This document shows positions 11,547 to 13,794 of a stretch of 48,253 nt of DNA, one piece after another. Location: IMG/VR virus record IMGVR_UViG_3300030406_001057, positions 2,189-50,441 of that record. One strand, written 5' to 3'. The notes beneath the pieces are model-generated. The model worked only from the letters and a program-made list of their open reading frames with translations. It ran no database searches and had not been told where the DNA came from. Position 1 is the first letter of the stretch; every line of letters starts with the position of its first letter. This DNA comes from a virus. Both the position numbers and the translations under genes were made by a program.

Positions 11547-12100
11547 ACGGAAAGGTTTGCTTCTTTACATTTGGTAGGTTTCAACCACCTACCACTGGTC
11601 ATGCTGAGAGTTTTAATAGTGTAAAGCGTGCAGCAGGGACAAATGATTATTTGCTTTATATCTCACAGAGTGTTGATACAAAAGGTAGTAATCCTCTTCC
11701 TCCTGAGGTAAAATTGTCTTATATGAATAAGATGTTTCCGCAGCATAGAGGTAAAATTATTTCTGGACCTAGAGATCCAGTAGCAATTATGCAAGATCTA
11801 ATGATGAGAGGATATGATGAAGTTCATTTTCTAGTAGGATCTGATAGAGTTAACGCTATGAAGTTCCTACATAGATATAATGGTACTGAATATTCTTTTC
11901 GTAAAATTTATATTGAATCTTCTGGTAGCAGGGACGCGGACGGAGATACATTTTCTATCTCTGGAACTAAAATGAGACGTGCTGCTAATGATGGAGACTT
12001 TAAGGCATTTCGCCAAGGGATTCCTAGGTCACTATCAGATCAAGATACAAGAAAATTGATGCGAGAAATTGCTAATAGACTACCCGCTAACTTTAAATGA
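11537..12100 (+). CDS. HIGH-superfamily nucleotidylyltransferase (NMNAT-like)
   Basis: A 187-residue Rossmann-type nucleotidylyltransferase. The ATP-binding N-terminus is FGRFQPPTTGH (residues 12-22), the HxGH-type motif. FLVGSDR is at 98-104 and the C-terminal ISGTKMR at 141-147 matches the ISSTxxR motif. Relatives include nicotinamide-mononucleotide adenylyltransferase and pantetheine-phosphate adenylyltransferase; NAD synthesis or adenylylation of some other phosphate is possible. It is coupled to the ligase-like gene by a 10-base overlap. The substrate is not determined. Confidence 0.88.
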   Translation: MALDGKVCFFTFGRFQPPTTGHAESFNSVKRAAGTNDYLLYISQSVDTKGSNPLPPEVKLSYMNKMFPQHRGKIISGPRDPVAIMQDLMMRGYDEVHFLVGSDRVNAMKFLHRYNGTEYSFRKIYIESSGSRDADGDTFSISGTKMRRAANDGDFKAFRQGIPRSLSDQDTRKLMREIANRLPANFK

Positions 12101-12378
12101 AAACTTTTAAAGATATAAAAGAACAAGCACTCAGACAAAATTTCCGTAAAGGTAATGTCTTTACTGAAGGGAAGACTGTTATGAATGTAAACACTGGTGC
12201 AAAAGGAAAAATCATTCGCACTGGTCCAAACTATGTAATTTGTGTGACTGAAAGTAATGAGATGTTCCGCGCATGGGTGCGAGACATCAGGGAAGTCAAC
12301 GAAGTTATAAATAAACCAAGGAGAACACTATTTTTTACTCATGGACAAGCCAACACCGTCAACATCAGTGCGACATAA
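12097..12378 (+). CDS. small basic hypothetical protein, KOW/SH3-like core
   Basis: Ninety-three residues, overlapping the previous stop by 4 bases (ATGA). The core FTEGKTVMNVNTGAKGKIIRTGPNYVICVT looks like a small beta-barrel of KOW or SH3 type that could bind nucleic acid; this is inference. The tail (EVINKPRRTLFFTHG onward) overlaps the next gene by 38 bases. Confidence 0.65.
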   Translation: MKTFKDIKEQALRQNFRKGNVFTEGKTVMNVNTGAKGKIIRTGPNYVICVTESNEMFRAWVRDIREVNEVINKPRRTLFFTHGQANTVNISAT

Positions 12379-13528
12379 CGACGCATATTCTGAAGCAATT
12401 ATAGACTCTTATAAAAAATGGATGGATGGTGATACATTCCAGCAGTCCACTGTAGAAGAAGAGAAAGTCGAGACACCTATTGGTTCTTACGAGAAACCTG
12501 CTTTCGATACAGGTACTATTCCTACTTGTGATAAGTCAAAAGAGAAAGGAGACGATGTTTCTAGTAAAGATCCTAAGGCAAATGCGGGTGCTCCTGATCC
12601 AGCAACGAAACTTGTAGGTTCTATGACTATAGGACAGGGATCTGCTTCTGGTGGTGTTCAACAATCCCATGGTGCTGAAATTCGAGATACTACAAAACTA
12701 GTAGCAAGAGAGGAAGCGGAAAATGTTGAAGAAGGAAAGAAAGGACTCTACGCAAACATCCACGCAAAGAGAAAGAGAGGAGAAGCTCCTGCGAAACCTG
12801 GCTCCAAAGACTATCCAGCAAAGGATGCGTTTAAAAAGGCTGCAAGAACTGCTAAAGAAGAGGTATCCTTCGAGTTAGATGGAGAACTTTATATCTTCGA
12901 GAGAGAAGTTATTGAAGAAGGTAGCATGAAGCAAGCACGTAAAAACGTTGGTGCATCTACATGTTGGAAAGGATATAAAGCACAAGGAACTAAGAAGAAA
13001 GGTGGTAAGACTGTTCCTAATTGTGTAAAAGAATCAATCAAAGTTAAGTGTCCTGACTGTAAAGGAGAAGGTTGTAACCATTGCGACAACAAAGGTTATC
13101 ATCTTAAGGAGTATTTTGTCTCTGATATGAAAGAATATTTTGAGAAGGTTGATGGTAAGATGGTTAAGAAGCACAACTGTGCTAAGAAAGTTAAGTATAA
13201 GAAAGAAGAGTATGATGTAATTCATGGTGAGCACACTCTTTTAGAAGATGGAACTGTAACTCATTATGATATTATGAGTGAGCATGGTACAATTATCCAT
13301 AACGTTCCTGTTGAGGAATTAGAAGTGACTGTTGAGGGAATGCATGAGCATTTCGTTAACGATGCTAAGAATCGTGAGGTTTTTGGTGAGAAACTTGATC
13401 CAGTTGGTAAGGCAGATGCTGATATCGACAACGATGGTGACGTAGATAAGTCAGATAAGTACCTACATGCTCGTCGTAAGAAGGTTACTAAGATCATCGC
13501 TGCTAAGAATAGATCCTCAAAAAAGTAA
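12341..13528 (+). CDS. metal-motif hypothetical protein, zero-frame product
   Basis: A 395-residue hydrophilic, Lys/Glu-rich protein with three recognisable pieces. SFELDGELYIFEREVIEEG (about 176-194) resembles a short repeated segment of phage proteins. CPDCKGEGCNHC (Cys237, 240, 245, 248) is a DnaJ-like zinc-binding cluster. DIDNDGDVDKSD (361-372) is a perfect calcium-binding EF-hand/dockerin-type loop. The zero frame ends at a TAA directly after the slippery sequence A AAA AAG. The -1 frame continues for 89 residues. Upstream AGGAG is 17 bases from the ATG, so initiation may depend on coupling. Possibly an internal head or structural protein; function unknown. Confidence 0.78.
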   Translation: MDKPTPSTSVRHNDAYSEAIIDSYKKWMDGDTFQQSTVEEEKVETPIGSYEKPAFDTGTIPTCDKSKEKGDDVSSKDPKANAGAPDPATKLVGSMTIGQGSASGGVQQSHGAEIRDTTKLVAREEAENVEEGKKGLYANIHAKRKRGEAPAKPGSKDYPAKDAFKKAARTAKEEVSFELDGELYIFEREVIEEGSMKQARKNVGASTCWKGYKAQGTKKKGGKTVPNCVKESIKVKCPDCKGEGCNHCDNKGYHLKEYFVSDMKEYFEKVDGKMVKKHNCAKKVKYKKEEYDVIHGEHTLLEDGTVTHYDIMSEHGTIIHNVPVEELEVTVEGMHEHFVNDAKNREVFGEKLDPVGKADADIDNDGDVDKSDKYLHARRKKVTKIIAAKNRSSKK

Positions 13529-13557
13529 CTGAGGCTTGCGAGTGCGACGACAAGCCT
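13519..13557 (+). promoter_or_regulatory. putative programmed -1 ribosomal frameshift signal
   Basis: The heptamer A AAA AAG (13519-13525) lies in the zero frame as tcA AAA AAG, followed at once by the stop TAA. After a 6-base spacer comes a perfect 7-bp stem, AGGCTTG (13532-13538) with CAAGCCT (13551-13557), around a 12-base loop. This is the classical bacterial -1 frameshift layout, as in dnaX. A slip leads into the 89-codon frame 13525-13794. An indel at the A6 run is the alternative. Confidence 0.72.
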
Positions 13558-13794
13558 AAAGGTAAAAAAGGAAAGAGAGTTGAGGTGATGCCTGAGATTG
13601 ACGATGGGAAAGACCCCAATAAACCTAAGAAATCAAAGGATATTTACGTCAAAGAAGAGGCACCGAAGGGAAAAAAGTATGAGCGTATGATCAAACACAT
13701 TAAAAGATCATACGCAAAAGATGGTAAACTAACGAAGGATGAAAAATCCATCGCGTACGCTACTGCATGGAAACATAAGAACAAGAATAAATAA
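13525..13794 (+). CDS. -1 frame C-terminal extension of the 12341 gene
   Basis: Eighty-nine residues read in the -1 frame after the slippery site, giving a fusion of about 484 residues. It begins VTEACECDDKPKGKKGKR, runs through an acidic linker (MPEIDDGKDPN), and ends in a compact basic helical domain: YERMIKHIKRSYAKDGKLTKDEKSIAYATAWKH. That last segment is a frequent C-terminal module of cyanophage proteins, often following a KVTEAC-type segment, so it probably belongs to the upstream protein. A GTG at 13585 or ATG at 13588 could start it separately, but the ribosome site there is poor. Confidence 0.65.
   Translation, partial: VTEACECDDKPKGKKGKRVEVMPEIDDGKDPNKPKKSKDIYVKEEAPKGKKYERMIKHIKRSYAKDGKLTKDEKSIAYATAWKHKNKNK
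13786..13793 (+). promoter_or_regulatory. possible late promoter AATAAATA
   Basis: AATAAATA ends 27 bases before the ATG at 13821. It is one base off the T4-type late consensus TATAAATA and overlaps the preceding stop codon. Confidence 0.4.

Follow-up and report, generated by a model that had tools for sequence, protein, structure and literature searches.

Comparative sequence evidence indicates that the boundary between two coding regions of this cyanophage DNA is very probably a −1 programmed ribosomal frameshift site of the dnaX type. The site had been proposed for this one instance in the first-pass annotation, and the proposal is supported by the conservation of the heptamer and stem, by a covarying stem in a second clade of relatives, and by purifying selection in the −1 frame. 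It appears to be common to many T4-like cyanophages, and would be an example of a known mechanism operating in a new gene family. The likely role of the shift is to provide some copies of a phage protein that has EF-hand and cysteine motifs with a basic C-terminal module. The gene is unrelated to those of the tail assembly chaperones, to which most annotated phage frameshifts belong; if the interpretation is true, abundant marine viruses have a frameshift that is conserved but unannotated, and the protein set of these cyanophages changes.

The junction and the upstream protein

The window, i.e. the whole stretch of 48,253 nucleotides analysed, is a portion of an IMG/VR virus record that is 50,939 bases in full; all features described here lie on its + strand. 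The zero-frame ORF (12341-13528) ends UCA-AAA-AAG-UAA, with the slippery heptamer A_AAA_AAG (13519-13525) in phase and the UAA stop codon (13526-13528) immediately 3′ to it. A perfect stem of 7 bp begins after a spacer of 6 nt, its 5′ arm AGGCUUG (13532-13538) pairing with CAAGCCU (13551-13557) across a loop of 12 nt. The −1 frame continues open for 89 codons to a stop at 13792-13794. The predicted products are 395 residues in the zero frame and 484 residues for the −1 fusion. The first-pass annotation had noted the heptamer and its adjoining stop, which we confirmed to the base, and its hairpin, open frame and product lengths were all found as described.

Ribosomes at UCA-AAA-AAG would encounter the stem about 6 nt further on, with the stop codon adjoining the heptamer. 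The two lysyl-tRNAs would move one base upstream, their pairing changing from AAA-AAG to AAA-AAA, and the shifted fraction would then read GUA-ACU-GAG into the extension to give the longer protein, while the remainder would terminate at 395 residues. In relatives the putative stimulator would be a GGAG sequence upstream (resembling an internal Shine-Dalgarno sequence), a stem downstream, or both. We infer the occurrence and efficiency of slippage, its stimulation by the stem or GGAG, and the use of both products. In E. coli the slipperiness of A_AAA_AAG is tied to the sole tRNA-Lys (PMC5009743). The genome of the marine, host-type Synechococcus RCC307, the only one checked, has 41 tRNA places with one tRNA-Lys (UUU), and the true host of this phage presumably resembles RCC307 in this respect.

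The upstream protein of 395 amino acids is modular, containing a KKGLYANIHAKRKRGE segment, a CWKGYK...CVK segment, a CxxC cluster and an EF-hand-like segment. The cysteine cluster CPDCKGEGCNHC (13049-13084) is possibly metal-binding, and is missing from many relatives on alignment. The EF-hand-like segment DADIDNDGDVDKSDK (13415-13459) is kept in most relatives, and served as the anchor for our survey of junctions. A Pfam search with the window proteins gave no match, and PHROGs placed them in families of unknown function (phrog_4359 for the upstream protein). AlphaFold models had pLDDT values of 41 for the upstream protein and 58 for the tail, and are unreliable. From the gene neighbourhood we might guess at a virion or head-associated role for the upstream protein.

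Conservation among relatives

Relatives were collected by protein searches of IMG/VR, by collection-wide scans directed at the heptamer, and from isolate genomes. Of the 68 distinct junctions anchored by the EF-hand segment 45 have A_AAA_AAG, in 18 the start and stop codons overlap as AUGA, and five have unrelated ends; the heptamer-directed scans, in which the matches listed were mostly unrelated loci, raise the first of these numbers, and the junctions from protein searches only are divided 21, 13 and five respectively. The window has 22 AAAAAAG sites compared to 15.5 expected, so that the sequence by itself is not rare and conservation is the meaningful test; the heptamer is conserved beyond chance. 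It is invariant in phase in all 45 distinct junctions. The first-pass annotation had suggested comparing related phages for the heptamer and the stem, and both are conserved in relatives.

The constraint is apparent at the level of codons. AAA-AAG are the last two codons right before the stop in 45/45 distinct junctions, which are kin and hence not independent trials but include several tail types that have diverged. Of the other Lys-Lys pairs in these ORFs only 42/449 (9%) are AAA-AAG, and lysine is encoded more often by AAG. The codon 5′ of AAA-AAG is GAA, TCA, GCA or GGA, encoding Glu, Ser, Ala or Gly, and its third base is always A. The stop codon is UAA in 21 and UGA in 24 of the 45, with UAG found in other families. 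In some members the heptamer is kept and the stop comes one codon later, i.e. CAA-UAG in P-HM2, UCG-UAG in L094 and UAU-UGA in L037. Amongst all distinct ORFs ending Lys-Lys in the viral loci fetched, 71/142 end in AAAAAAG, a proportion inflated by the heptamer-directed scans.

The heptamer is present in 12 isolates (S-CAM3, S-CAM1, Sf-CH11, Syn1, S-H9-2, S-PM2, Sf-FR1, P-HM1, P-HM2, S-RIM32, Sf-FP1 and MED4-213), with the genera named being Charybdisvirus, Anaposvirus, Vellamovirus, Yushanluvirus, Nodensvirus, Eurybiavirus and Bristolvirus. The gene order in isolates is cytidyltransferase, a gene of the 93-aa type, the upstream gene, the tail, a small gene and a head protein, with primase farther on; the upstream gene of P-HM1 is longer and incorporates the 93-aa-type part, which in the window forms a gene by itself. 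None of the isolate records examined annotates a joined CDS across the junction, and in Sf-FP1 and MED4-213 the tail has no CDS annotation at all. The first-pass annotation knew of no described frameshift here, and we likewise found none in the upstream gene of cyanophages in open-access PMC papers.

Some further observations were made at these loci. The 93-aa gene of the window (12097-12375) is labelled ‘ribonucleotide reductase alpha subunit’ (PHROGs phrog_4808, RefSeq), which looks wrong given its short length; it also matches portions of cytidyltransferase families. In relatives from Prochlorococcus phages (L094-L110, P-HM1 (L418), P-HM2 (L419) and MED4-213 (L424)) the heptamer is combined with UAG or CAA-UAG, and the tail is of another type, VASSSVEIMPELDDPDGMK...VDCPIHG. 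In another family (L037, L038, L044, L045, L047 and L053) A_AAA_AAG precedes UAU-UGA or UCU-UGA, just 5′ of the YERM module; here there is a UUG in the −1 frame that is an alternative possible start. In L166, L319 and L328 a different ORF terminates in a long stretch of lysines that contains AAAAAAG; UAAUG comes next, with a gene beginning MPRKLS. This junction is probably an ordinary overlapping start.

Putative stimulatory elements

The AGGCUUG/CAAGCCU stem is invariant in the clade of the window and in S-CAM1, even in L006 where there is a 3-nt deletion in the loop. In the alignment of the window clade all five third-codon positions within the stem are invariant; there is no covariation in this clade and the stem also encodes conserved residues, so that selection on RNA and on protein are not fully separable. 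Most members of the clade with tails VKxAxVEVMP have a different, strong stem that starts 6-7 nt past the heptamer. The calculated stabilities are about −17 to −23 kcal/mol, with z mostly −2.4 to −5.5; the stems of L230, L277, L235 and L250 are weak. On alignment of 13 members 93% of the pairs are formed, compared to 31-63% when the alignment is slid, and four pairs have changed on both sides, showing covariation of the stem in this clade. In the VKKPVVEVMP clade the downstream structure is weak.

Stems of two further families fall at about the same place. GGGGGAC/GUCCCC lies right after the heptamer in L182, L193, L231, L249 and L256, where the upstream protein ends DFNEQVKK and the tail is VKGGLVSPKSPNCIVMP; we found no relative of this tail among annotated phage records. 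CAGGAGG/CCUCCUG lies about 6 nt downstream in the family of L037, L038, L044, L045, L047 and L053 described above. A search of Rfam gave no match.

GGAG is found 8-14 nt upstream of the heptamer in 18/20 members of the VKxAxVEVMP clade (at 11 nt in 15 of these), and 8 nt upstream in 11/12 of the VKKPVVEVMP clade. The corresponding frequencies are 2/13 in the window group and 0/18 in the AUGA types, with a background of 6%. The window junction itself lacks the upstream GGAG, which would be an accessory element that is not required of every member. We note that in S-CAM1 (L410) and L353 an upstream GGAG/EEEKK region from one clade is joined to the window clade's AGGCUUG stem and its EACGCDDKP tail; the chimeric nature of these junctions suggests that recombination has occurred near the heptamer.

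The extension, alternative interpretations and known systems

The −1 extension (13525-13794, 89 codons plus stop) has the sequence VTEACECDDKP...VEVMPEIDDG...YERM... Nearly all tails share the VEVMP motif (13579-13593 in the window). The basic C-terminal module KKYERMIKHIK...AYATAWKHKNKNK (13648-13791) is predicted with low confidence to form two helices, and relatives have other modules in its place. The tails are basic and their ends swappable, comprising the YERM module, a KKYILKAMKSQ module or, in S-PM2, DUF3008. Purifying selection acts on the extension in the −1 frame. For the 21 codons between the shift and the VEVMP Met in the window clade dN/dS is about 0.28, and all indels are of 3 nt; beyond that Met it is 0.05.

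The tail might alternatively be made as a separate protein by termination and reinitiation, starting either at a GUG that overlaps the stop codon or at the AUG within VEVMP. Annotators place the tail start at GUG or AUG, with the ATG at 13588 inside VEVMP the most frequent annotated start in isolates, and an AUGA overlap is present in 18 distinct related junctions. A GUG overlies the stop in 24/45 heptamer junctions, i.e. the UGA types, which are individually ambiguous. Yet in the 21 UAA junctions, in the window and in the UAG families, the corresponding codon is GUA, which is not a start. Moreover, the −1 frame of the window clade contains no ATG, GTG or TTG from the preceding −1 stop as far as +60, the first possible tail start in the window, so this stretch could be translated only via frameshifting or from a non-standard start. 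That a stretch devoid of starts is nevertheless selected in the −1 frame is the strongest argument against reinitiation. Reinitiation would also leave unexplained the conservation of AAA-AAG and of the preceding A, and the AUGA types also conserve the motif VEVMP, but at an internal position. We therefore regard reinitiation as unlikely.

In another scheme RNA polymerase would slip on the A run, gaining or dropping bases, and the altered mRNA would be translated to give the fusion. There is a run of six or seven A at the site, but it is short; it is just A6 in the window and in 13 of the 45 junctions, and transcriptional slippage usually requires longer homopolymer runs (about nine or more). 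Neither the in-phase AAA-AAG with its stop, nor stems at about 6 nt, nor GGAG at fixed spacing would be explained, and we consider this very improbable.

Homopolymers are prone to sequencing error and one additional A would join the frames, but an indel or a decayed gene has a negligible probability, since the same state occurs in many independent assemblies and isolates, there is no fused homolog and purifying selection acts on the extension. Independent IMG/VR contigs that are 81-100% identical across the junction all retain A6 and UAA, and together with the isolate genomes, which keep A6 or A7 and the immediate stop, they rule out an assembly error. The first-pass annotation had pointed to such an indel, or to relatives fused in one frame, as evidence that would count against it. 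Amongst 66 locus records having both parts (some contigs being counted twice) there are no single-frame fusions, and the tail is in the −1 frame in all. Frameshifting could be tested directly in S-PM2, Syn1 and P-HM2, which carry the heptamer; the predicted junction-spanning sequence of S-PM2 includes KEETEKKVKKPVIEVMPEIDDG.

The AUGA pairs, found in isolates S-RSM4, S-WAM2, S-H9-1, Sf-CH1b, ACG-2014h and S-CAM4, have coding parts homologous to those of the heptamer types at the same locus, with the tail in the −1 frame. Unlike in the heptamer types, the tail starts at an AUG of its own, with a separate N-terminus (MKxF...), and the junction lacks both A_AAA_AAG and the upstream GGAG. Expression of the one gene pair thus varies naturally between two modes. 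A tree of a neighbouring gene requires eight switches of architecture, at least three of them forced, a number that is unreliable because some branches are very long and the cytidyltransferases fall into two deeply divided groups. We give about even chances to a broader picture in which recoding is widespread in T4-like cyanophages and has interchanged repeatedly with AUGA pairs, placing swappable C-terminal modules on a fixed proportion of the copies of a modular protein with metal motifs and being tuned by interchangeable stimulators (GGAG, stem or both).

The closest parallel in mechanism is E. coli dnaX, where the identical heptamer lies in phase with a stem after a short spacer (PMC5009743); upstream GGAG is found in two of the cyanophage clades, and Synechococcus RCC307 has one tRNA-Lys. 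The shift in dnaX leads to a shortened product via an early −1 stop, whereas that in the cyanophages would extend the protein past an immediate stop; dnaX has an internal Shine-Dalgarno sequence, while the window itself has no upstream GGAG. In gene 10 of phage T7 (10A/10B) a −1 shift near the stop similarly extends the C-terminus in some copies (PMC5009743). By contrast, that is a major capsid gene unrelated to the window gene, and it uses a G_GUU-type heptamer and a distant stimulator. The tail assembly chaperones (G/GT of lambda, and others) also have a frameshift conserved in tailed phages that generates two products with a common N-terminus, but they are a different gene located 5′ of the tape measure gene, whereas the cyanophage site lies between the genes for cytidyltransferase and the head protein.
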